In this document: piece after piece, positions 1 to 12,345 of the stretch | Layout: every line of letters begins with the position of its first letter | Position numbering within the stretch: the first letter of the stretch is position 1 | Assembly (NCBI RefSeq): GCF_015841355.1 | Contig: NZ_CP064908.1 | Coordinates: forward strand, 682,001-746,000 | Direction of reading: 5' to 3' | Length of the DNA stretch: 64,000 bases | Source: Synechococcus sp. CBW1107 | Lineage (GTDB): Bacteria; Cyanobacteriota; Cyanobacteriia; PCC-6307; Cyanobiaceae | Position numbers and translations under genes: made by a program | The notes under the pieces: model-generated | The model's database searches: none | The model's input: only the letters and a program-made list of their open reading frames with translations | What the model was told of the DNA's origin: nothing

Positions 1-925
1 CATGGCCCCCCGGAGAGGGCAGACGCGCGGCCACCGCCTCCTCCAGAAGGCAGAGGCCATTGAGCAGAAGGGCGGTGGCCGGCAGGGTGCGAATCGCCGC
101 CACCGCTGCAGTCCAGCTGCGGAAATCGATCACCACCTGTTGCCAGGGCACCGCCGCGGCTGTGGCCAGGGTCACGGCGGTGAGGATGCCGTTGCTGCCG
201 TAGGCGTGGTTGAGGGGTGCACTGGCGCTGGCATCGAGCTGCAGCAGCCGGGGCTCTGGCTCCACCGTCACCACTTCCAGCCCCAGCAGATGACCCGGGT
301 CCCGCAGGAAGCCCCAGCGCACCGAGCCGATGCCGCCTGAACCTCCAGCGATGAACCCCCCCAGGCTGGCGCTGCGGCGAGTGCTCGGGGTGAGACGCAA
401 CTCCCGACCATGGGGGGCCAGCCGCTGGTCCAGGTCGGCCAGCAGGCATCCCGCCTCGGCGGTCATCACCCCGCTGAGGGGATCCAGCTGCCGCAGCTGG
501 TTGAGGCCGCTGAGGTCGAGCACCACTCCCCCCGCCAGAGGGACACACTGGCCGTAGTTCCCGGTGCCGCTTCCCCGCAGCGTGAGCGGCACCCCATGAC
601 GGGCACAGGCTCCCGCCACCAGCCGCACCTGCTCGCTACAGCTGGCCCTGACCACCAGCTGGGCCAGCCTGTCCTGCAGCAGCGGCGTCAGCACCGGGGA
701 GTAGCCGAAGAAATCCCTGGAGAGTCGCTCCAGCTCAGGCCCGCTGCGGATCACGACCAGACCTTTGCCGGCGTTGGCGGCGGCTGAGGGATCTGCGGCG
801 GCCACGGCTGTCAGCTCGGCCACCAGAGCCTCGAGCTGGGAGTCCTTGGCGGGCGCCGGCAGACCGCTCGGCAGCTGGGTGGCCACAGCCAGGGCAGGGG
901 GACGGGTGTCTGGATCGAAGGACAA
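1..925 (-). CDS. FAD-linked oxidase (GlcD/GlcE-like), 3' end cut by window edge
   Basis: The minus strand stays open from about 925 to the left edge, so at least 308 residues are visible and the C-terminus lies outside. The frame carries the FAD-binding (PCMH-type) signature RGSGTGNYGQ and, further on, GFIAGGSGGIGSVRWGF, as in glycolate/lactate oxidase subunits and related flavin dehydrogenases. A stop codon overlapping the end of the upstream amidohydrolase gene limits the start. A TTG at 925 or a GTG at 886 are the candidates; neither has a good ribosome binding site. It probably oxidises a 2-hydroxy acid in photorespiration or organic-acid use, but the substrate cannot be read from the sequence. 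It follows the amidohydrolase in the same direction. Confidence 0.8.
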   Translation of the reverse strand, partial: MSFDPDTRPPALAVATQLPSGLPAPAKDSQLEALVAELTAVAAADPSAAANAGKGLVVIRSGPELERLSRDFFGYSPVLTPLLQDRLAQLVVRASCSEQVRLVAGACARHGVPLTLRGSGTGNYGQCVPLAGGVVLDLSGLNQLRQLDPLSGVMTAEAGCLLADLDQRLAPHGRELRLTPSTRRSASLGGFIAGGSGGIGSVRWGFLRDPGHLLGLEVVTVEPEPRLLQLDASASAPLNHAYGSNGILTAVTLATAAAVPWQQVVIDFRSWTAAVAAIRTLPATALLLNGLCLLEEAVAARLPSPGGH

Positions 926-972
926 GGAGCGGGGGCAGCGAACGGCAGGCGGAGCTGGCGCCTGCTTCCGTT

Positions 973-2295
973 CTACTCAGCCGGGCCGGGCCAGGACGCG
1001 GCCATCGCCTCCAGCCGTGCCGCCAGCGCCGGCGGCGACGGCAGAGGCAGCCACTCGCCTGCGCGCAGCACCCGGCGCTGGGGAGCGCGGGCCAGCAACT
1101 CACTCCAGCTGCCGGCGGCGAGCACCACCAGATCGGCTGGCGCCCCGGAGCGCAGCACCCCATCCCACTCCAGACCCATCAACCGCGAGGCGGCGGTGGT
1201 GAAGGGAGCCAGCCCCTGCCGCTGCCAGGGGGCCAGGTGGGCCGCCGGGAGGGAGAAGCGGAGCAGTTCCAACGGATCGAAATCCCCTCCCGGATACCAG
1301 GGGTCCTGAACGTTGTCACCCCCCACCGCCACCGTGACACCGGCGCGCTGCAGCTGGCGGATCGGGGCCAGGGGCCGGGTGGCCGGGGTGTCTCCAGCGT
1401 GATGTCCCAGCAGCCAGAGGTTCGTGGGGGGCAAGGCCACCACCGCCAGGGAGGCGTCCGCCATGGCATCGGCGAGCCGGCTCAGGCGGGGAGCCTTCAA
1501 CTGCGACATCGAGCAGCTGTGGCTGCAGGTGACCGGCACACCGATGCGATGCCGCCGCACCAGACTGGCCACCAGGGCCACCCCCGCTCCCCCCCCCTCG
1601 CCGCTCTCGTCGACGTGGAGATCCACTGGGGCACCGAGGCTGTCGGCCAGCCGCAGCAGGGCCAGCAGCCCTTCGCCATCGCCACGGCCGGAGGCCAGGG
1701 GAGCCCCCAGAACCCCACCCAGCAGCACCGATCCCCTCGGACCACGGCTGACGAGCCGCCGGGCCAGGGCCTCGCCCGCCGCCGAGTCCCAGTGGCGCAC
1801 CGGCACCAGGGCCACCAGCTGCAGCTCCAGCCGCGGCGCCCAGCGGCGTTGCAGCTGCAGCAGCCCCTCCCATCCCGGCTCGGCGCCTGGGCCGAGGCTG
1901 TCGATGTGGCTGCGCACAGCCCTCAGCCCATAGCGCCAGGCCTGCTCCAGGGCACGCTCACCCCGCTCCAGCACCTGCTCGAGAGTGCGGTCCTGGTGCT
2001 CAGCCTGGTTGGCGGCCAGGGCCCCCTGCATCGTGCCCGCCGGGTTCGGGTGGCGCTCCCAGCTGAAGGCCTTGTCGAGGTGGGCATGGGGCTCCACCAG
2101 TGGTGTGAGCGCCAGCGGCAGCAGGTCCCCGTCACGCCGCTGGTGAGTCTCGATCGCCGTGATCCGTCCATGCTGATGGCTCAGACGCACGGCCACCAGG
2201 CCGCTCGCATCCGCAGGGGGCAGGTCGAGCCGCCGGGGGTCGATCAGGGCGCGCGGCAGCAGCAGCGGCGGCAGGGACTCAGCCGCGCTCACCAC
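973..2295 (-). CDS. Amidohydrolase, cytosine deaminase-like
   Basis: 440 residues. The metal-site motif HAHLDK (residues about 70-75) is the cytosine-deaminase-type version of HxH. It is followed by LHVDES (metal or catalytic His/Glu region), TCSHSCSM and GGDNVQDPW, which supplies the late conserved Asp. These are in the order expected of the amidohydrolase TIM barrel that hydrolyses ring C-N bonds of pyrimidines or related heterocycles. The GTG start overlaps the stop of the upstream DUF4359 gene by 7 bases, so the two are probably co-transcribed. The natural substrate (cytosine, isoguanine, another cyclic amide) is not decided by these motifs. Confidence 0.85.
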   Translation of the reverse strand: MVSAAESLPPLLLPRALIDPRRLDLPPADASGLVAVRLSHQHGRITAIETHQRRDGDLLPLALTPLVEPHAHLDKAFSWERHPNPAGTMQGALAANQAEHQDRTLEQVLERGERALEQAWRYGLRAVRSHIDSLGPGAEPGWEGLLQLQRRWAPRLELQLVALVPVRHWDSAAGEALARRLVSRGPRGSVLLGGVLGAPLASGRGDGEGLLALLRLADSLGAPVDLHVDESGEGGGAGVALVASLVRRHRIGVPVTCSHSCSMSQLKAPRLSRLADAMADASLAVVALPPTNLWLLGHHAGDTPATRPLAPIRQLQRAGVTVAVGGDNVQDPWYPGGDFDPLELLRFSLPAAHLAPWQRQGLAPFTTAASRLMGLEWDGVLRSGAPADLVVLAAGSWSELLARAPQRRVLRAGEWLPLPSPPALAARLEAMAASWPGPAE

Positions 2296-2738
2296 GGTGC
2301 ACGGTCGGCGCTGGCACTGTCAGAGTCGTTGTCGCTGGAGGTTTTCAGGATCCTGAAGTGCCCGGCAACCGCCACGGTGAGCACCCTGTAGAGAGGGAGT
2401 TCGAGAAACGGCAGCACCGAGGGGCCTCCGATCTGGGTGCGGTAGAGGCTGAACAGTCCGAAGTTCTGCCGCCGGGTGTTGCGACGGGCCAGCTCTCCGA
2501 GGACCCGGTTCTGGCTGCGGATCAGGTCAGGACAGTTCTGGATCGCCAGCTTCAGCGGCATCGGCAGGCGATTGACGCAGACCTCCTCCACCGCCAGTTC
2601 AGCCAGATGGTCACCGGCGAAGCTCTCGAACTCCTCCAGCCCAGGGTTGGTGAAGGCGAGGGCGACCCCGGTGACCCCACCGCCCAGGGCCAGAGCCGTG
2701 CACCAGCGGGCGTAGCAAGGGGAAGTGGCGGGCCGCAA
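2289..2738 (-). CDS. DUF4359-like secreted or membrane-anchored protein
   Basis: 149 residues from a TTG start; no better start is visible in frame. A single hydrophobic segment near residues 15-30 is followed by the AFTNPGLEEFESFA motif that I associate with the cyanobacterial DUF4359 family. A Cys pair (VEEVCVNR, IQNCPDL) could form a disulphide outside the membrane. No function is known for the family. It overlaps the amidohydrolase start by 7 bases, so the two are likely translated from one message. Confidence 0.7.
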   Translation of the reverse strand: MRPATSPCYARWCTALALGGGVTGVALAFTNPGLEEFESFAGDHLAELAVEEVCVNRLPMPLKLAIQNCPDLIRSQNRVLGELARRNTRRQNFGLFSLYRTQIGGPSVLPFLELPLYRVLTVAVAGHFRILKTSSDNDSDSASADRAPW

Positions 2739-2780
2739 GGTCAGGGTGCAGGGCTGCTTGATACATTGGCAAAGACCACG

Positions 2781-2853
2781 GCGGGCGTCGCCAAGTGGTT
2801 AAGGCAGCGGCTTGTGGCGCCGCTATTCGGGGGTTCGAGTCCCCTCGCTCGCC
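2781..2853 (+). tRNA. tRNA-His (GTG)
   Basis: A 73-nt cloverleaf. Acceptor 2781-2787 GCGGGCG pairs with 2846-2852 CGCTCGC (one G-T pair). The anticodon stem GCGGC/GCCGC encloses TTGTGGC with anticodon GTG at 2814-2816, and the T-loop is TTCGAGT. The discriminator is C and the base before the acceptor is G (2780), the G-1:C73 pair diagnostic of tRNA-His. CCA is not encoded. The 3' half overlaps, on the opposite strand, the end of the DUF1611 gene. Confidence 0.95.
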
Positions 2854-3911
2854 CTCAACGAGGCCAGCAGCCGATCGGCTGCTGGTTCATTTCTCACCGG
2901 GTCGGTGCAGGCAAGGCCCAGTTCATCACTGATGGCCGCACAGGCCCTGGCAGCGCTGGTCTCGGACAATCCGGCGGTGTTCAGCGCCACGACCCTCACC
3001 CGGGGTTGGGGTCCCGCGGGCCGGCCCAGAGCCGCCAGTCCCTCCAGGACATCGATCAGGTCCTTCAGAGGCGGGATGCCGACCTGGGGGTGCTTGTTCA
3101 CATGGCTCTGGCCGGCCCGGTGGACCAAAACCAGTGCCGTGGGCTGGCAGCCCCGGATCAGCGGCAGGGTGGCCGAGGAGCCGGGGTGGCAGAGGGAGCC
3201 CTGGCCCTCCACGAACAGCAGGCTCTCTTCGGTGCAGGCCGGCTCTGAAGCCACCTCCAGCAGGACCCGCTCCACCGCGCCGGCGGCGTAATCGACGCGG
3301 ACCGCATCCAGGGGGACCCCTCTGCCGCTGATCAGGATGCCGGCCTGGCCGGTGCCGACGAAACGGGCATCCAGCCCGGCGCGTCTGGCGGCCGAGGTGA
3401 GCTCCAGGCAGGCGCTCATCTTGCCCACGGCCATGTCGGTGCCGACCGCCAGAACGCGCCCGGCAGGCAGCGCCGCCGCCCGGGCCGCAGCCACCTCCAG
3501 ACCTGGGGGCTCCTGGCGCAGATCCCAGATCCACTGCCCGGCACCCCGCAGGGCGGCCAGCTCCGGATCCGAGGCCAGGGGGGTGTGCAGACCGCTGGCC
3601 AGGTGCAGCCCGGCTCGCAGCGCCGCCGCCAGATCGGCCTTCAGCTCCGGAGGCAGCTGCCCGCCGGACGGAGCCAGCCCCACCACCGCCACCTCCGGCC
3701 GGTAAGCCAGCGCGGCGTTGAGATCGGCCACGATCGGCACCCGCCGGGAGATGCCGGTGATGGGCTCGAGTTCAGCGCCCGCATGGGCCGGATCCACCAC
3801 GGCCACCACCGGACCCTGCCGGTAGCGCAACATCGCCAGGCCCGTCTTGCCCGACAGGTTGTCCAGGCCGCCGTGGAGCAGCAGCACCACGGGCGCATCG
3901 GCGCTCAGCAC
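2823..3911 (-). CDS. dgcN: DUF1611 P-loop protein, D-glutamate N-acetyltransferase DgcN-like
   Basis: 362 residues, GTG start. DUF1611 proteins have an N-terminal Rossmann-like part and a C-terminal P-loop part; here GTDMAVGKMS is the Walker A-like loop and LLFVEGQGSL follows. The gene overlaps the 3' end of an enolase-superfamily racemase by 7 bases. This pairing is known as DgcN/DgcA, in which DgcN acetylates D-glutamate and DgcA racemises N-acetyl-D-glutamate. The last residues (EGTRTPE) are encoded by the antisense strand of tRNA-His, so the true C-terminus in relatives is probably shorter. The role in D-amino-acid recycling is inferred from the pairing. Confidence 0.8.
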   Translation of the reverse strand: MLSADAPVVLLLHGGLDNLSGKTGLAMLRYRQGPVVAVVDPAHAGAELEPITGISRRVPIVADLNAALAYRPEVAVVGLAPSGGQLPPELKADLAAALRAGLHLASGLHTPLASDPELAALRGAGQWIWDLRQEPPGLEVAAARAAALPAGRVLAVGTDMAVGKMSACLELTSAARRAGLDARFVGTGQAGILISGRGVPLDAVRVDYAAGAVERVLLEVASEPACTEESLLFVEGQGSLCHPGSSATLPLIRGCQPTALVLVHRAGQSHVNKHPQVGIPPLKDLIDVLEGLAALGRPAGPQPRVRVVALNTAGLSETSAARACAAISDELGLACTDPVRNEPAADRLLASLRASEGTRTPE

Positions 3912-5035
3912 GGGTCACTCGCCGACCTGGGGCCGTCGACCTCGATCACCCCCAGCCCAGGATGGATGGAGGGCAGCAGGAGGTCCGCCCGGAGCTCCGG
4001 GCCTTCGAAGGGGTCATCGATCAGGTTCAGATGGCTGTCGAGGTCGGGCCAGCGCACCAGCGGCAGCAACTGGGAGGCCGCTCCATTGAGCAGGGCGCTG
4101 TCGGAGTAGCAGCCCAGCATCAGCTCGAGCCCGAGGCTGCGGGCGGTGCGGGCCATCAGCAGCGCCTCACTGAGCCCGCCGCTCTTGAGGAGCTTGATGT
4201 TCACCCCATCGACATGGGGGGCCAGGCGCAGCAGGTCGGCCAGAGTCCAGCAGCTCTCATCGGCCACCAGGGGAATCGGGCAGCTCAGATCGAGGGCCGC
4301 GAAGCCGGCCGTGTCGGCGTCGGGGTCGAGCTGGGCGGGCAGCGGCTGTTCCACCAGCACCACCCCCTGCTCCGCCAGCCAGGGAATCAGCTGCTGGGCC
4401 GTGGCCAGATCCCAGCCGCCGTTGGCATCCACCTGCAGCTCACTGACCCTGCCGGCGGCACCGGCCCGTTCCTGCAACCTCTGCACCACCGCCAGCACCA
4501 GGGCCCGGTCGTGATCCGGGCCATCAGGGCTGCCCAGCTTCAGCTTCAGCCGCCTGGGCCAGCAGCCCAGGCGGTCCTGCCAGAGATCCAGCCGGGCCAG
4601 CACCTGCTCAACCCCAGCCAGGCCGAGGGTGACGCTGGTGGGGCTGCAGGCGGCCCGATCCAGGCCCCAGAGACGCCAGAGGGGCTGACCCAGCTTCTGG
4701 CCCCACCAGTCATGCAGAGCCAGGTCGATGGCGCAGCGGGCCGGTGGCGACAGGGGGGCCAGCCAGGGCTCGAGCGCCTGAAAGGCCGGTAGTTCCGCGC
4801 TGAGACTCCGCCCTTCGGCGGAAGCGAAGCGTGCCAGCAGGGCCTCCAGTTCAGCGGCGACCGTTTCGGTGGCGTAGGCCCGCTGACCAGTGTCGAACCC
4901 CCCGGCTTCGCCACGCCCCACCAGCCCCTCGTGCGCCAGCTCGACCACCAGCCGCCGCACCGAAGCCGTGGTGCCCCGGCTGATCGCCAGGGGCACCGCC
5001 TTGGTGAGCGTGATCCAGCGAAGGCCTGCCTGCAT
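3905..5035 (-). CDS. dgcA: Enolase-superfamily racemase/epimerase, DgcA / dipeptide epimerase type
   Basis: 376 residues from ATG 5035; a second in-frame ATG at 5053 would add six residues. The muconate-lactonising subgroup pattern is present: KLKLG with the catalytic Lys pair, QVDANGGW (first metal ligand), VEQPL (second), ADESC (third) and NIKLLKSGG (second catalytic Lys). Members racemise N-acyl amino acids or L-Ala-D/L-Glu. With the adjoining DUF1611 gene the best guess is conversion of N-acetyl-D-Glu to the L form; muropeptide epimerase is the alternative. Its start lies at the left end of a 40-bp palindrome whose right end is the start of divergent miaB. No ribosome binding site is seen. 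Confidence 0.82.
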
Positions 5036-5072
5036 CGCACAAGTTTCGGCCATGGTCGAAACTTGTGCGATG
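5033..5072. repeat. 40-bp near-perfect palindrome between divergent dgcA and miaB starts
   Basis: Arms CATCGCACAAGTTTCG (5033-5048) and CGAAACTTGTGCGATG (5057-5072) are perfect reverse complements. The centre contains CCATGG, leaving one mismatched pair (5049/5056). The outermost three bases of each arm are the proposed ATG codons of dgcA (minus) and miaB (plus), and the central CATG gives each gene an alternative ATG. It could be a dimeric operator serving both genes, a leader hairpin, or the scar of an inverted duplication. Confidence 0.9.
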
Positions 5073-6494
5073 AGCGTGACCACCACAACAGCGAGTGCCA
5101 CAGCAGCGGCACGACCCGGGACCGCACAGCCCGGCAGCTACTGGATCACCACCTTCGGCTGCCAGATGAACAAGGCCGATTCCGAGCGCATGGCCGGAAT
5201 CCTCGAAGGCATGGGCTATCACCCCGGGAGCGATGAGCACAGTGCCGATCTGGTGCTCTACAACACCTGCACGATCCGCGACAACGCCGAGCAGAAGGTG
5301 TACAGCTACCTGGGCCGTCAGGCCCAGCGCAAGCGCAGCAACCCCCACCTCACGCTGGTGGTGGCCGGCTGCGTGGCCCAGCAGGAGGGCGAGTCGCTGC
5401 TGAGGCGGGTGCCGGAACTCGACCTGGTGATGGGCCCCCAGCACGCCAACAGGCTGGGCACTCTGCTGGAGCAGGTGGCCAGCGGCCAGCAGGTGGTGGC
5501 CACCGGCGAGCATCACATCCTCGAGGACATCACCACCGCCCGCCGCGATTCCCAGGTGTGCGCCTGGGTGAATGTGATCTACGGCTGCAACGAGCGCTGC
5601 ACCTACTGCGTGGTGCCCTCGGTGCGCGGCAGGGAACAGAGCCGCAGCCCGGGGGCCATCCGCCTGGAGATGGAGGGGCTTGCGGAGCGGGGCTTCAAGG
5701 AGATCACCCTTCTGGGCCAGAACATCGATGCCTATGGCCGCGACCTGCCCGGCATCACCCCGGAAGGCCGCCGCGAGCACACGCTCACCGACCTGCTCCA
5801 CCATGTCCACGACGTGGAGGGGATCGAGCGGATCCGCTTCGCCACCTCCCATCCCCGCTACTTCACCGAGCGTCTGATCGACGCCTGCGCTGAGCTGCCC
5901 AAGCTCTGTGATCACTTCCACATCCCTTTCCAGAGCGGTGATGACGACGTGCTGAAGGCGATGGCACGCGGCTACACGGTGGAGCGCTACCGCCGGATCC
6001 TCGAGCGGATCCGGGAGCGCATGCCCGATGCGGCGATCAGCGCCGATGTGATCGTGGCCTTCCCCGGCGAAACCGACGCCCAGTACCGCCGCACCCTGGC
6101 CTTGATCGAGGCGATCGGCTTCGACCAGGTGAACACCGCCGCCTACTCGCCCAGACCCAACACTCCCGCCGCCGACTGGCCCGGTCAACTGCCGGAGGCC
6201 GTGAAGGTGGAGCGGCTGCAGGAGCTCAATGCCCTGGTGGAGCGCACCGCACGGCAACGCAGCGAGCGCTACCGGGGACGCATCGAGCAGGTGCTGGTGG
6301 AGGGCACCAACCCCCGGGACCCCGCTCAGCGCATGGGCCGCACCCGCACCAACCGGCTGACCTTCTTCCCGGACCGCGCCCCATCCCCCGGCCACGGGGA
6401 GCGCGACGGCGCCGTCATTCAGCCGGGTGATCTGGTGAATGTGCGGATCGAGGAGGTGCGTGCCTTCTCCCTCACCGGGGTGGCGGTGGGCTGA
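5070..6494 (+). CDS. miaB: tRNA-2-methylthio-N6-dimethylallyladenosine synthase
   Basis: 474 residues from ATG 5070. MiaB adds the 2-methylthio group at A37 of tRNAs reading UNN codons. The N-terminal UPF0004 domain supplies Cys31 ([11 protein letters not shown]), Cys67 ([12 protein letters not shown]) and Cys101 ([10 protein letters not shown]) for one 4Fe-4S cluster. The radical-SAM triad is Cys173, Cys177, Cys180 (GCNERCTYC). A TRAM domain ends the protein. Upstream in-frame codons lie in the dgcA coding region, so ATG 5070 (or 5052 inside the palindrome) is preferred. No ribosome binding site is visible. miaB is followed 49 bases later by ddl. Confidence 0.95.
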
Positions 6495-6543
6495 GACGCG
6501 GGGCGCTGATACGTTTGGCGCCGATCCGGATCCAGCCGACCCC

Positions 6544-7665
6544 ATGCCCAGCCCCCCCCGCTGCGTCGGCCTGGTGTTCGGGGGGGCTTCCGACGAGCAC
6601 GCCGTCTCGATCCGCTCGGCCATCACCGTGGTGGGCGGCCTCAGGGGGGGGGAGAACCTTGTTCGCTACCGGGTTCGGCCGTTCTACATCGATCGTGACG
6701 GCCGCTGGTGGGGGCCCGAACTGGCGGAGGCCGTGCTCTCCAGCGGCGAGCCACCGCCTGATGGGCAGCTGATCGGGACGGCTGCAGATCCTTCGCTGAC
6801 GGGTCCGGGCTTCCGGGGCCTTCCCCCGGGGGCTGCTGAGGTGGACGTGTGGTTTCCGGTGCTGCACGGGCCCAATGGTGAGGATGGCACCATCCAGGGT
6901 CTGTTCGCACTGATGCAGGTGCCCTTCGTGGGCTCGGGCGTGCTCGGCTCGGCCCTGGGTATGGACAAACAGGCCATGAAAGCCGCGTTCGCCGCCGCAG
7001 GCCTGCCCCAGGTGCCCTACGCGGCCGTCCAGGCGGCTGACCTCCGCCGTGACCCTGAAGGGCTTCTCGGGCGGCTGGAGCGCGATCTGGGTTACCCCTG
7101 CTTCGTCAAGCCGGCCAACATGGGCTCCTCGGTGGGCATCAGCAAGGCCAGCGACCGCAACGCTCTGCTGCAGGGGCTGAAACTGGCCGCTGCCCTGGAT
7201 CCGCGGCTGGTGGTGGAGCAGGGGGTCACGGCCAGGGAACTGGAGTGCGCCGTACTCGGCCAGGGCATGGGAGGCCGGGGCGGCCTGCAGGCTTCGGTGG
7301 TGGGGGAGATCCGCTTCTCCGCCGACTGGTACGACTACGAGACGAAGTACACCGCAGGGCTGAGCTCCACGGTGATTCCCGCAGAGCTGCCCGAGCCCGT
7401 GAGCGAGAGCGTGCGCAGCATGGCTCTGCAGGCCTGCGCCGCCGTGGCGGCTGAGGGGCTGGCCCGGGTGGATTTCTTCTACGACGAGACCGCGCAGCGG
7501 CTCTGGCTGAACGAGATCAACACCCTGCCCGGCTTCACCAGCCAGAGCATGTATCCGATGCTCTGGGCAGCCAGCGGCGTACCCCTGGTGGATCTCGTGC
7601 ACCAGCTGGTGGAGAGCGCGGGAGAATGGGACGGTGGATCATCTCGAGAGGACCCGGCGGAATGA
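6544..7665 (+). CDS. ddl: D-alanine--D-alanine ligase
   Basis: 373 residues from ATG 6544 ([14 protein letters not shown]). This ATP-grasp enzyme makes the D-Ala-D-Ala end of the peptidoglycan stem peptide in the cytoplasm. Visible landmarks are the N-terminal [10 protein letters not shown] loop, [25 protein letters not shown] (ATP grip), ETKYTAG, and [17 protein letters not shown], which carries the metal-binding Asn/Glu. Its stop overlaps the next start (ATGA), beginning a tight cluster with a small membrane protein and ftsQ, then ftsZ. This joins wall precursor synthesis to division. Confidence 0.96.
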
Positions 7666-8072
7666 GTCACGGCTTGGTCTGGCTGCCCCTGCTGGTGGTC
7701 TTCGTGTTGCTCACGGCCCTCGGCTGGCTCGAGCGGCGCCGTCAACGGCTGTTCCGTGACTGGGCGGCGGGCTCGGAACTCGCGAAGCTCGATGGCTGCG
7801 GAGCGGCACGGCTCGCTGATGGAGTCCTGACCTGGAGCACCTTCGAAGCCGGGGTGCTCAAACCCCAGGGATCCTTCGTCATCAGCAAGCTGGAATTGCT
7901 GGAGCTGATGTCCCTGGGATCGGGTGACGCTCCCCTCACCGACGAAAGTCAGGGCAGTTGCCGGGTGAGGCTGGTGGGTGATGGCCAGCAGAAGGATGTG
8001 CCGTTCTCCGATGCCGATCGTGCCCGGCGCTGGATGGACGAACTGATGGCCCGTTCCCGTTGTGAGCTGTGA
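7662..8072 (+). CDS. Conserved single-pass membrane protein between ddl and ftsQ
   Basis: 136 residues with one N-terminal hydrophobic helix ([19 protein letters not shown], about residues 5-23), then a basic stretch (ERRRQRLFR) that should stay in the cytoplasm, and a soluble tail of about 100 residues. It overlaps ddl by 4 bases (ATGA) and its stop overlaps the GTG start of ftsQ. That coupling suggests a division or wall role, but I recognise no family and no catalytic motif. It might be a picocyanobacterial division accessory protein; this is inference from position only. Confidence 0.75.
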
Positions 8073-8908
8073 GCCCCGCACCCCAGGCGCCAGGTGTTGA
8101 ACGACGGCGACAGCTGAGGCTGCAGCGCCGTCAGGAGCGCCTGCGCAACTTCTGGCGGCTAGTGGTCTTCTCCGCGGCCGCCGCGGGCCTTGGTTACGGA
8201 CTTCTGCGTCAGGGCTGGACCCTGAGCAGCCCATCCCAGGTGGACGTGAGCGGCAGCGAACGCGTCAGCCGTGAGCAGGCGATCGCCGCGGCCGAGCTTC
8301 GCTTTCCCATGCCCCTGCTGACTCTCGATCCCAGGCTGCTGCGCGCGGAACTGCTGGACGCCCTGCCCGTGGAGCAGGTGACGGTGCAGCGTCTGATCCT
8401 TCCGCCCCGGCTGCGCATCGAGCTGGTGGACCGCCAGGTGGTGGCTCGGGCGGAGCGCCGCACAGCCAAAGGGAATGAGCAGGGCTATGTCGACCGCCTG
8501 GGCAACTGGATCAGCAGCAGCCAGCAGGCCATGGGATCCAGCGGCAGCCAGCCCGAAACGGCGGTCCTGGTGCAGGGATGGCAGGCTCGCTTCAAGCCCA
8601 CGATCGTGAAGCTGATCAGCCGCCGCAATGACCTGGGCAGCCCACTCAGGACCATCCGCTTCGAGCCCGATGGCACCATCTGGCTGACCACCGGCAGCCT
8701 CGGGGAGGTGAAGCTCGGCGGAGCTGACGGCGATCTCGCCCGCCGCCTCGATGTGTTGCGCTATCTGTCCGGGGAATTGCCGAAGCGAGTCCAGGGCCAG
8801 GGGGTGCGCTCGATCGACCTCAGCGACCCGGACCAACCCGAGCTGGGGCTGCCAGCTCCAGCCGTCGGTTCCGGCAATCCGAAACAGGCCGGGAACGGAG
8901 TGGATTGA
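8069..8908 (+). CDS. ftsQ: Cell division protein FtsQ/DivIB
   Basis: 279 residues, GTG start overlapping the preceding stop. The topology is that of FtsQ: short Arg-rich cytoplasmic N-terminus (RRRQLRLQRRQERLRN), one membrane helix (about residues 30-48), then a POTRA domain beginning QVDVSGSERVSREQAIAAA and a beta-rich periplasmic domain. FtsQ links the cytoplasmic and periplasmic divisome. Position between ddl and ftsZ matches the usual division/cell-wall cluster. The C-terminal tail (from about residue 260) is rich in Pro and Gly and probably disordered. Confidence 0.9.
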   Translation: MSPAPQAPGVERRRQLRLQRRQERLRNFWRLVVFSAAAAGLGYGLLRQGWTLSSPSQVDVSGSERVSREQAIAAAELRFPMPLLTLDPRLLRAELLDALPVEQVTVQRLILPPRLRIELVDRQVVARAERRTAKGNEQGYVDRLGNWISSSQQAMGSSGSQPETAVLVQGWQARFKPTIVKLISRRNDLGSPLRTIRFEPDGTIWLTTGSLGEVKLGGADGDLARRLDVLRYLSGELPKRVQGQGVRSIDLSDPDQPELGLPAPAVGSGNPKQAGNGVD

Positions 8909-9040
8909 TGCCGTTCAGACCGCAGACTCGCCAATGGCTCGCAAACCCGCACAGGCCCATTGCGAGAATACGCATTTCACGCAAAGTTGCCGCATCGCAC
9001 AGGATTTTTCCAGTCCGCCGCCGACATAATGCTTCCCGAG

Positions 9041-10228
9041 ATGAGTGTGAACGGTTCCCCGGGCGACCACCCCATCGCACACCAGCACACCATCCCACCA
9101 GAAGCCTTACTCGGAACCCCTTTGACCTCCTCGCCCTCCAGTAACGGCATTGTTCCCAGCCAGAGCGCCAGGATCGAAGTGATCGGTGTTGGCGGTGGCG
9201 GCAGCAATGCCGTCAACCGGATGATCGCCTCCGATCTCGATGGAGTCGGCTACCGGGTACTCAACACCGACGCCCAGGCCTTGCTGCAGTCAGCTGCCCA
9301 GCGGCGGGTGCAGCTCGGCCAGAAGCTCACCCGGGGTCTCGGGGCTGGCGGCAACCCCATGATCGGTCAGAAGGCCGCCGAGGAATCCCGCAACGAGCTT
9401 CAGGAAGCTCTGGAGGGGGCCGACCTGGTGTTCATCGCTGCCGGCATGGGTGGCGGTACCGGCACCGGCGCTGCGCCCATCCTGGCCGAAGTCGCCAAGG
9501 AATGCGGGGCCCTCACCGTGGGCATCGTCACCAAGCCCTTCGGCTTCGAGGGCCGCAAGCGCATGAAGCAGGCGGAGGAGGGGATCGCCCGCCTGGCGGA
9601 GCACGTCGACACCCTGATCGTGATCCCCAACGACCGCCTGCGGGACGCCATCTCCGGCGCGCCCCTGCAGGAGGCGTTCCGAGCCGCCGACGATGTGCTA
9701 CGTCAGGGCGTCAAGGGCATCAGCGACATCATCACCCGGCCTGGACTGGTCAACGTCGACTTCGCGGATGTGCGCTCGGTCATGACCCTGGCGGGCACGG
9801 CCCTTCTCGGTATCGGCGTGGGCTCCGGACGCTCACGGGCCGTGGAGGCCGCCCAGGCCGCCATCAGCAGCCCCCTGCTCGAAGCAGCCCGGATCGATGG
9901 AGCGAAGGGCTGCGTGATCAACATCAGTGGCGGCAAGGACATGACCCTCGAGGACATGACCACGGCCTCTGAAGTGATCTACGACGTGGTCGATCCCGAC
10001 GCCAACATCATCGTGGGCGCGGTCGTCGACGAGAAGCTCGAGGGCGAGATCCACGTGACGGTGATCGCCACCGGCTTCGAGGCAGGCAGCTCCTACCGCA
10101 CCGAGCGACCCCGCGCGACGTTCGCCACGAGCCCGGAACTCACCCACACCGAAGCCGAGGCCGACCAGCGCGGCGCCAAGATTCCACCGTTCCTGCTCAA
10201 CCGCCAGAGCCGCTCCAGCGACAGCTGA
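9041..10228 (+). CDS. ftsZ: Cell division protein FtsZ
   Basis: 395 residues if ATG 9041 is used; ATG 9029 would add four residues and an upstream ATG at 8960 is possible but extends beyond the usual length. This tubulin-like GTPase forms the Z ring. [17 protein letters not shown] opens the core, [12 protein letters not shown] is the GTP signature, and [11 protein letters not shown] is the T7-loop region with the Asp needed for hydrolysis. A Ser/Pro-rich N-terminal extension precedes the core, as is common in cyanobacteria. The end ([10 protein letters not shown]) resembles the conserved C-terminal peptide that binds partner proteins. A gap of about 130 bases after ftsQ leaves room for its own promoter. 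Confidence 0.96.
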
Positions 10229-10236
10229 TTCAAGGG

Positions 10237-10337
10237 GGTGACCCGGAGTCCACGCCTGCCCGGAGCATCCCGTGTGGCTGCTCCCTTCCGGTCCTGACCA
10301 GATTTGGGCGTCCGGGCCGCGTGGGTCCGAGTCGGGT
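10237..10337 (-). ncRNA. ffs: Signal recognition particle RNA (4.5S type)
   Basis: The minus strand carries GACCGGAAGGGAGCAGC, the conserved apical domain of small bacterial SRP RNA (symmetrical and asymmetrical internal loops plus GGAA tetraloop). The flanks fold back: ACCCG near 10337 pairs with CGGGT near 10241, and CCACG with CGTGG further in, giving one long hairpin of about 100 nt. It binds Ffh in co-translational targeting. Ends are estimated from the pairing. It lies antisense between ftsZ and panB. Confidence 0.88.
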
Positions 10338-10373
10338 TGATGGTAGCAATGGAAGCTCTGGAGGTTCCTGCCC

Positions 10374-11222
10374 GTGCCCCTGCGACCCGGTGATCTCGTG
10401 GCCCGCAAGCAGGAGGGTCGGCCGATCCTGATGCTGACCGCCTGGGATGCGCTCTCGGCGGCGCTGGTGGAGGAGGCCGGAGCCGAAGTGGTGCTGGTGG
10501 GCGATTCCCTGGCGATGGTGGTGCTCGGCCATGCCACCACCCTGCCGGTGACCCTGACGGAGATGATCGGCCACACCCAGGCCGTGGCCCGGGGTCTGCG
10601 CCGGCCCGAGGGGCAGCAACCGCTGCTGATCTGCGATCTGCCCTTCCTGAGCTATCAGTGCGGCGGTGATCAGGCGGTGGCCGCCGCCGGCCGGGTGCTC
10701 AAGGAAAGCGCTGCGGCGGCCGTGAAGCTGGAGGGAGGGGAACCGGAAACCGTGGCTGTGGTCGACCGGCTGGTGCGCAGCGGGATCCCGGTGATGGGCC
10801 ACCTCGGTCTGACCCCCCAGTCGGTGCACAGGCTGGGTTACCGCCGCCAGGCCAGGGATCCGATCAGCCAGGAGCGCCTGAGGCGCCAGGCCCTGAATCT
10901 GGAGGCCGCCGGCTGCTTCGCCCTGGTGCTGGAGCACGTGCCGGCGGATCTGGCCGGCAGCCTGCGCCGGCAGCTGGCCATTCCGGTGATCGGAATCGGC
11001 GCCGGCGACGACTGCGACGGCCAGGTGCGGGTCACCGCGGATCTGCTGGGCCTGACCCCGAGCCAACCTCCCTTCAGTACGCCACTGCTGGCCGGGCGCC
11101 AGCTCTGCGTGGAGGCCCTCAGGGGCTGGCTGCAATCGGCGACACCTCCGGGACCGGCGGCGTCTCGGCAGGCTGATGGGCGTCCCACCAGGCCAGCAGC
11201 TCCCTCAGCACCGCATTGCTGA
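10374..11222 (+). CDS. panB: 3-methyl-2-oxobutanoate hydroxymethyltransferase
   Basis: 282 residues, GTG start with GGAGG about 10 bases upstream; no ATG fits the frame. PanB makes ketopantoate from 2-oxoisovalerate and methylenetetrahydrofolate, the first committed step to pantothenate and CoA. Motifs: [26 protein letters not shown] (metal-binding Asp), [30 protein letters not shown]. The last 20-30 residues (Pro/Ala/Arg-rich) exceed the usual family length and come from a 104-base convergent overlap with hemW. Confidence 0.93.
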
Positions 11223-12345
11223 GGGCCAGTCCCTGCGGATCCGCCAGACGCCAGCGTCGGCCCTCCACCAGCAGCAGCCCCCGCTCGCGCCAGGGGGCCA
11301 TCCAGCCGTGCAGCGATGCGCGATCAGCCTCACTCAGGCCCGCTGCCTGGGCAAGCCGCTCCAGGTTTACCCCTTCGCGTCGGCGCAGACCCACCATCAG
11401 CCACTCATCGAACGGCGGCTGCCCCGCCGCCGGGACGGCCGACCTGGTCTGCAGCCAGGCGGCATAGGCCTCCCGGGTGCGGGGCCTGGCCTGACGCTGG
11501 CCGTAGGGAGCCGACGTGGCCCCCAGTCCGAAACCCCACCAGCCGGCCCCACTCCAGTAAACGCGGTTGTGGCGGGACGCGTGCCCGGGCAGGGCGTAGT
11601 TGGAGATCTCGTAGCGGCCGAAGCCGGCGCTCCGCAGCAGCTCGCCGGTGAGGTCCATCAGGTCGGCCCCCAGATCCGGATCCGGCAGGGGCAGCTCTCC
11701 GCGCTTCTGCAGGCGCTCGAACACGGTGCCCGGCTCCACGATCAGGTCGTAGACGGAAAGATGGGGAGGCCCCAGCTCGAGGGCCTGCTGCAGCTGCTGC
11801 CGCCAGTGGGGCAGATCCTGCTCGGGGAGACCCTGAATCAGATCCAGACTCCAGCTGACCAGGTCGCCGGCGGCCTGGGCCCGGCTCAGCCAGCCGGCGG
11901 CCTGGAGCAGATGCTGACGGCGATGGCGGCGGCCGAGACGCTCCAGCACGGCGTCATCGAAGCTCTGCCCCCCCAGGCTCACCCGGTTGATGCCCAGCGC
12001 CAGCATCCCCTCCAGCCTCGGGCGGTCGAAGCTGGCCGGATCCATCTCCAGGGTGATCTCAGCTCCAGGGGAGAAGCCGAAGCGCTGGCGCAGGCCATCC
12101 AGGAGCTTCCCCATCTGCTCGGGGGTCAGCAGCGACGGGGTGCCGCCACCGATGTAGACGGTGGAGAGAGGGGCCGGGTTCTCAGAAACGGCGATCTCAG
12201 CCTGCAGCAGTGGCAGGTAGGCGGCGATCGAGGCGGAATGGGCACCGTCGGCCTTGTCCCCCAGGGGCACCACCGCGAAGTCGCAGTAGAAGCAGCGGCG
12301 GTGGCAGAAGGGGATGTGGAGGTAGGCGGCGCGGGGTGCGTTCAA
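11119..12345 (-). CDS. hemW: Radical-SAM protein HemW (coproporphyrinogen oxidase-like)
   Basis: 408 residues. The N-terminus reads [18 protein letters not shown] and the CxxxCxxC cluster motif is CHRRCFYC, followed by GGGTPSLL (SAM-binding GGE-like motif) and a HemN-type C-terminal domain. HemW proteins are related to oxygen-independent coproporphyrinogen III dehydrogenase but act as heme-binding chaperones in characterised bacteria. A separate HemN would be expected to carry a longer N-terminal sequence. The 3' end overlaps panB on the other strand. Confidence 0.88.

Follow-up and report, generated by a model that had tools for sequence, protein, structure and literature searches.

In prokaryotic bidirectional promoters, as far as the available excerpts of one report describe them, pseudo-symmetric DNA can engage RNA polymerase in two orientations, the binding of one polymerase blocking that of the other (PMC12825309). 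According to the same excerpts, a spacing of 18 bp between the two start points is the commonest and preferred one in E. coli, with 10 and 23 bp also being common. Basal transcription of the five E. coli bidirectional promoters tested there was too low for competition, and overlap of two promoters therefore need not mean that they are coupled (PMC12825309). Symmetric DNA is also described as a product of mutation. In template-switch (quasipalindrome) mutations, a reverse-complement copy can be made in one event and the identity of the two arms can be restored, according to the excerpts available of two reports (PMC8794818; PMC7202029). Moreover, leaderless transcripts, which start at the start codon, are known in cyanobacteria, and the accessible part of a study on S. 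elongatus UTEX 2973 gives 19 start sites considered leaderless (PMC6091082).

The locus described here is part of a 64,000-nucleotide stretch of DNA from Synechococcus sp. CBW1107 (the window, to which all coordinates refer). It consists of a gap-free palindrome at 5033–5072, with arms at 5033–5052 and 5053–5072 that are 0 nt apart and complementary at 19 of 20 pairs (95%). The lone mismatch is G5049 versus T5056, which would be a G-U pair in RNA of the plus strand. The ends of the palindrome are the ATG of a dgcA-like gene (5035–5033, minus strand) and the ATG of miaB (5070–5072, plus strand), so that a start codon stands at either end. The first-pass annotation of this DNA, made from the letters alone, had noticed that a palindrome with a single mismatch fills the gap between these divergent start codons, and this was borne out. 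Chance was rejected as its origin: the next-longest gap-free palindrome of the window with at most one mismatch has an arm of only 11, the largest arm in 30 first-order Markov surrogates of the window ranged from 9 to 14 against 20 here, and about 0.0014 palindromes this good are expected by chance per 3.2 Mb. The palindrome is unusual and conserved in its genus, and it most likely represents two mirror-image copies of the start signal of one gene, with a putative promoter in each.

The dgcA-like gene (3905–5035, minus strand) encodes a protein with MR_MLE, enolase-like domains. Its end is overlapped by 7 bases by a dgcN-like gene (DUF1611; 2823–3911, minus strand), with which it probably forms one operon. 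On the other side, miaB (5070–6494, plus strand) encodes a tRNA methylthiotransferase that scores 433 bits with TIGR01574, for which the cut-off is 355. The miaB product thus stands above its NCBIfam cut-off, while the names dgcA and dgcN are approximate and hold at the level of the family, as the DgcA model gives 156 against a cut-off of 400 and the DgcN model 215 against 480. A D-Ala-D-Ala ligase gene is the next one downstream of miaB. The end of dgcN lies beside a tRNA-His at 2781–2854. In some other genera (e.g., loci L017, L025, L026, and L028), a similar-looking tRNA precedes miaB and no dgcA is seen in between; the interval from tRNA-His to miaB may therefore have gained or lost dgcA and dgcN. 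Two further observations concern the coding regions. An inverted repeat with 8-bp arms, GGTGCCCC...GGGGCACC, is present inside the dgcA-like gene near its start (4970–4997), and, apart from one base in G008, this stretch does not vary within the genus (nine genomes), not even at synonymous sites. Besides, MiaB has a non-conserved N-terminal extension (5073–5130), which is shortened in frame in G005, G006, and G007.

By eye, no Shine–Dalgarno-like sequence precedes either ATG, in agreement with what had been noted before on ribosome binding sites. It had also been proposed that both genes can start at the central CATG (5051–5054). This tetranucleotide is indeed in frame with both outer ATGs, and both proteins would then begin M-A/V-ETCAM, but it is only a possible alternative and not the default start, because the distance from the outer dgcA ATG to the conserved LTK-VPL block equals that found in the dgcA homologues of other genera, the start being taken in this comparison as the last ATG before the block. 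The start of the dgcA-like gene thus has the position it has in other genera.

Each of the nine genomes of the genus (designated g1; G000, the genome of the window, plus G001–G008) has the gene pair together with the palindrome. The palindrome core is present in Synechococcus WH 5701, Cruz-7E5, 1G10, RedBA-s, CS-1329, J7-Johnson, and BSA11S, and in Cyanobium CZS48M. Seven of the 15 core-matching stretches were in unrelated bacteria; these were taken as chance matches, as about four are expected by our own estimate (18 fixed bases in 257 Gb). The two arms match at 19/20 positions in eight of the g1 genomes and at 17/20 in G003. The inner 26 bp (5040–5065), CAAGTTTCGGCCATGGTCGAAACTTG, do not differ at any base among the nine genomes, and all changes between species of g1 fall in the spacer between GAAACT and ATG. 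Compared to the common form, the window and G008 are each changed at one matched pair, and G003 has two unmatched changes. By an informal count that treats 12 spacer positions as free, and against which G003 speaks, each of the two matched double changes had a chance of about 0.03. All nine genomes retain the G/T mismatch near the centre, which indicates that the arms are not simply homogenized. Loss of the palindrome in relatives that keep the gene order, together with the lack of another copy in the genome, had been named as the sign of a local accident. The conservation in all nine genomes of the genus argues against such an accident; other genera with the same gene order do lack the palindrome.

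The explanation that we consider most probable, with some reservation, is that the palindrome comprises a mirror-image pair of leaderless core promoters standing back to back, the one of dgcA being an inverted copy of the one of miaB. The miaB arm (5051–5072, plus strand) reads CATGGTC (5051–5057), the putative -10 hexamer GAAACT (5058–5063), the spacer TGTGCG (5064–5069), and ATG (5070–5072). On the minus strand, the dgcA arm (5033–5054) reads CATGGCC (5054–5048), GAAACT as putative -10 hexamer (5047–5042), the spacer TGTGCG (5041–5036), and ATG (5035–5033), and can be viewed as an inverted copy of a miaB-type arm. Each arm would thus carry an element of approximately (C/G)AT(A/G)-N3-GANACT, in which GAAACT, at -12 to -7 relative to the ATG, would be read by RNA polymerase as -10 box, and transcription would start at or next to each ATG, making the transcripts leaderless. 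In bacterial -10 boxes, the A at -11 and the T at -7 are the two best-kept positions. If transcription starts at the ATG, GAAACT at -12 to -7 places an A at -11 and a T at -7. The hexamer shares three of six positions with TATAAT (A2, A4, and T6) and is a weak -10. No pair of TTGACA- and TATAAT-like hexamers at the sigma-70 spacing of 16–18 nt was found in 4800–5300. GAAACT, the putative core element, is equidistant from each ATG in 9/9 genomes. The putative start points (5035 and 5070) would lie 35 bp apart, so that each -35 region falls on the start codon of the other promoter, and because of this distance two polymerases would be unable to occupy both promoters simultaneously. Two features exceed this scheme: the near-invariant AT, which precedes the hexamer by five to six bases, is not explained by a plain -10 box, and 26 invariant inner bases are more than two -10 boxes require.

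The comparison with the miaB genes of other genera is the decisive one. In total, 95 miaB loci were compared, comprising the 30 best matches, 60 chosen among the matches listed to spread over genera, and five from another search; the matches behind this choice came from 194 of 201 genomes, and a dgcA start is recognizable in 68 of the 95 loci. A half-site of roughly (C/G)AT(A/G)-N3-GANACT-N6-ATG precedes miaB in 58 of these loci and in 13 of the 28 genera, with 6 nt between the hexamer and an in-frame ATG in 52 loci and 7 nt in six. At a spacing of 6–7 nt, the element is absent from the other 37 loci and 15 genera. Weighted by genus, it reads C-S-A-T-R-G-C-S-GAAACT-G-G, in which the AT and, within GA-N-A-C-T, both A's and the final T are nearly invariant, although the motif was defined by regular expressions, so that the hexamer frequencies are partly due to selection (the check list comprised all GANNNN hexamers at spacings of 5–8). 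Two similar sequences are more distant: CATGGTTGACACTGG is found 38 nt (G180, genus g25) and 36 nt (G074, g67) before the next in-frame ATG. Conservation of the protein, namely of an N-terminal MAETG peptide, was ruled out as the source of the motif. On these comparisons, the miaB element is conserved as DNA and not as protein, because in g6 the reading frame is changed by the spacing of 7 nt and because the position of the upstream ATG is occupied by ATA in 17 of the 58 loci (g6, g10, g68, and g82) and by ATC in two. Moreover, the element is found before miaB in G030 (L026), in which the upstream neighbour is not dgcA but a tRNA that by eye resembles the tRNA-His of the window. Of 21 g6 genomes, 10 contain the strict element exactly once, each time before miaB; the half-site thus has the look of a miaB core promoter and not of a regulon site.

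The dgcA side is distributed differently. An inverted copy facing dgcA was found in all nine g1 genomes, in all three of g60, and, with the strict pattern, in two of four of g71. It was absent from all 52 loci of 14 further genera. The two remaining g71 genomes have GACACT or AACACT at the place of the hexamer in the inverted copy. The miaB arms of g1 and g71 do not match the strict pattern of this count and were entered in it as 0. In g60, the two copies are 71, 86, and 91 bp apart and hence form no dyad, while both keep the element. In g71, the same 40-bp geometry is present in all four genomes, with arms that agree at 11, 12, 15, and 16 of 20 positions. The arm before miaB thus recurs in 13 genera and its inverted copy in only three, for which reason the half-site, and not the dyad, looks like the ancient unit. 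From this distribution we infer that the dgcA side is the newcomer of the two arms. The other genera have a different sequence upstream of dgcA; in g5, g10, g54, g58, and g68, it contains, by eye, a TGTGCCAGCTTGA-like sequence about 20 nt before the start, which is possibly the original dgcA promoter. In a tree of dgcA, g1, g71, and g60 form one clade (SH-aLRT 92). This conflicts with the miaB tree, in which g71 groups with g60 and g74 (95) and g1 with g54 and g68 (94); both trees were made by a quick method with SH-aLRT values only, from L072–L101 plus four further loci, and include three of the four g71 genomes. The disagreement hints that the dgcA side was exchanged among genera; passage of dgcA from one lineage to another, or two origins, could account for it.

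As to the origin of the dgcA arm, the miaB arm would be ancestral and the dgcA arm its inverted copy, for which the simplest route would be template switching at CCATGG, a self-complementary sequence at the upstream edge of the miaB element. This copy would have displaced the upstream region that dgcA itself possessed. The proposed fold-back point is the centre of the palindrome, GGCCATGGTC (5048–5057). At the same place, just before GAAACT, GCCATGGCC is found in six of the 18 miaB loci of g54 (2/6), g60 (3/3), and g68 (1/9) and in none of the other 40 of the 58 loci; it is a possible fold-back point at the g1 centre and not a general one. Within the 58 loci, only those of g1 have a T as the base that follows the hexamer, and it is present there in both arms, as if one arm had been copied from the other; a g54 locus outside the 58, in G193, also reads CAAACTTGG. 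Of the three guesses of the first-pass annotation (a shared dimeric operator, a leader hairpin, and an inverted duplication of a 5′ end), the last is the best supported, since the dgcA arm matches the miaB-type motif and such an arm is seen only in g1, g60, and g71. The other two are less likely.

In case of an operator, a dimeric regulator would bind the whole dyad and control both genes together. Shared operators typically sit between divergent genes, and the location of the palindrome fits this pattern. The strict conservation of 26 bp in nine genomes and the conservation of the symmetry itself are also in line with such a site. An operator is nevertheless improbable. With at most three mismatches in 20 fixed bases, seven of the nine g1 genomes contain a single site, and the extra weak sites in G006 and G007 are coding sequence, as they fall at codon 18 of a long open frame with high GC3. 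A search for the half-site in the rest of the genome, which had been suggested earlier, returned no other match with fewer than three mismatches, and five other matches with three mismatches versus four for a reversed-pattern control; a second copy of the palindrome was not found in this genome with up to three mismatches. Outside the genus, GTTTCG-N8-CGAAAC gave 11 sites in 10 of 192 genomes, below the reversed control (about 80). A repeat or operator family in the genome is unsupported by these counts. Moreover, no regulator is encoded among the six neighbouring proteins scanned, and other genera have the half-site without the inverted copy. The dyad is conserved as a unit in 9/9 g1 genomes, but it is split in g60 and degraded in g71, and the other genera examined lack it. 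A regulator with a single target that reads the dyad only in g1 stays conceivable. A general class of leaderless promoters marked by GAAACT was not found either. GAAACT-N6-ATG occurs in the genome of the window solely at the palindrome, and its 53 matches in the nine genomes comprise 18 at the palindrome and 35 elsewhere, compared with 19 matches of the reversed pattern. Among 51 gene-like open reading frames of the window, just five, dgcA and miaB included, have a candidate start preceded at this spacing by a -10-like hexamer. With Rfam at the gathering threshold, positions 1–12000 contain one tRNA and one SRP RNA and no known RNA element at the palindrome, which was therefore not assigned to a described RNA family. 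In the open-licence literature, nothing on the palindrome element was found in searches on leaderless starts in Prochlorococcus and Synechococcus or start sites of MIT9313, or on inverted duplications with divergent genes, and no paper on miaB promoters in cyanobacteria was found.

A hairpin, of RNA or of extruded DNA, could also be the functional unit, for example as a leader structure hiding the AUG in transcripts that start farther upstream; this we judge less probable still. With -29 and -25.6 kcal/mol (z about -9), its fold is very stable, and the matched double changes in the window and in G008 agree with pairing. In an alignment in which six identical g1 palindromes were entered once, 85.4% of cells are paired, 11 are changed on both sides, and covariation is 0.190, values of which none is reached by any of 500 shuffles, although the rows are few and related and the measures therefore give no probability. 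Two other measures, however, do not stand out from the shuffles, namely the doubly changed pairs (126/500) and the additional pair types (348/500); seven of 18 pairs never vary, and G003 breaks two pairs. Pairing is much weaker in g71, where the arms that agree at 11–16 of 20 positions fold with -4 to -8 kcal/mol in two genomes and -16 to -21 kcal/mol in two. Furthermore, the hairpin would be missing from any transcript that begins at one of the two ATGs or close to it. Lastly, the palindrome could be a mutational relic, i.e., an inverted duplication kept symmetric just by template-switch correction, for which two promoters are not needed. Template switching is reported, in the accessible part of the source, to create as well as maintain stems (PMC8794818), and the matched changes are confined to the otherwise free spacer. 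The invariance of the inner 26 bp in nine genomes, the central mismatch that was never corrected, and the recurrence of the element before miaB in 13 genera speak against such a relic, which is the least probable of these readings.

The reading as two mirrored leaderless promoters also has a more far-reaching form, which we consider rather unlikely: a single event of inverted copying would have given dgcA the promoter and start codon of its neighbour, and the symmetry would have been selected, as one polymerase-sized site would serve two genes in turn and couple tRNA modification and D-amino-acid metabolism by mutual exclusion. If the two-promoter reading is true, inverted copying let one gene borrow the promoter of its neighbour. 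Stages of a divergent promoter could then be seen among living relatives, from a lone element over separated copies (g60) and a drifting pair (g71) to the near-perfect palindrome of g1. The case could test the movement of promoters between neighbouring genes, and whether symmetry is selected or results incidentally from replication errors. The comparison also suggests a conserved start signal of miaB in 13 of the 28 sampled genera of the family, without an evident -35 box and, in the window, without an evident ribosome binding site either.

Compared to the described systems, the putative promoters share with the cyanobacterial leaderless transcripts, as given in the accessible part of that study, the idea of a start at the codon, which is read here from spacing alone (PMC6091082). 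Like the bidirectional promoters in the excerpts of that report, the palindrome could engage RNA polymerase in both orientations in a mutually exclusive way (PMC12825309). Unlike in those of E. coli, for which 10, 18, and 23 bp are given, the putative start points (5035 and 5070) are separated by 35 bp, and the symmetry is near-perfect over 40 bp, including both start codons. Similar to the quasipalindromes described in the excerpts on template switching, one arm is possibly a reverse-complement copy made in one event (PMC8794818; PMC7202029). Here, in contrast, the copied segment would be a putative promoter together with its start codon, handed to the neighbouring gene.
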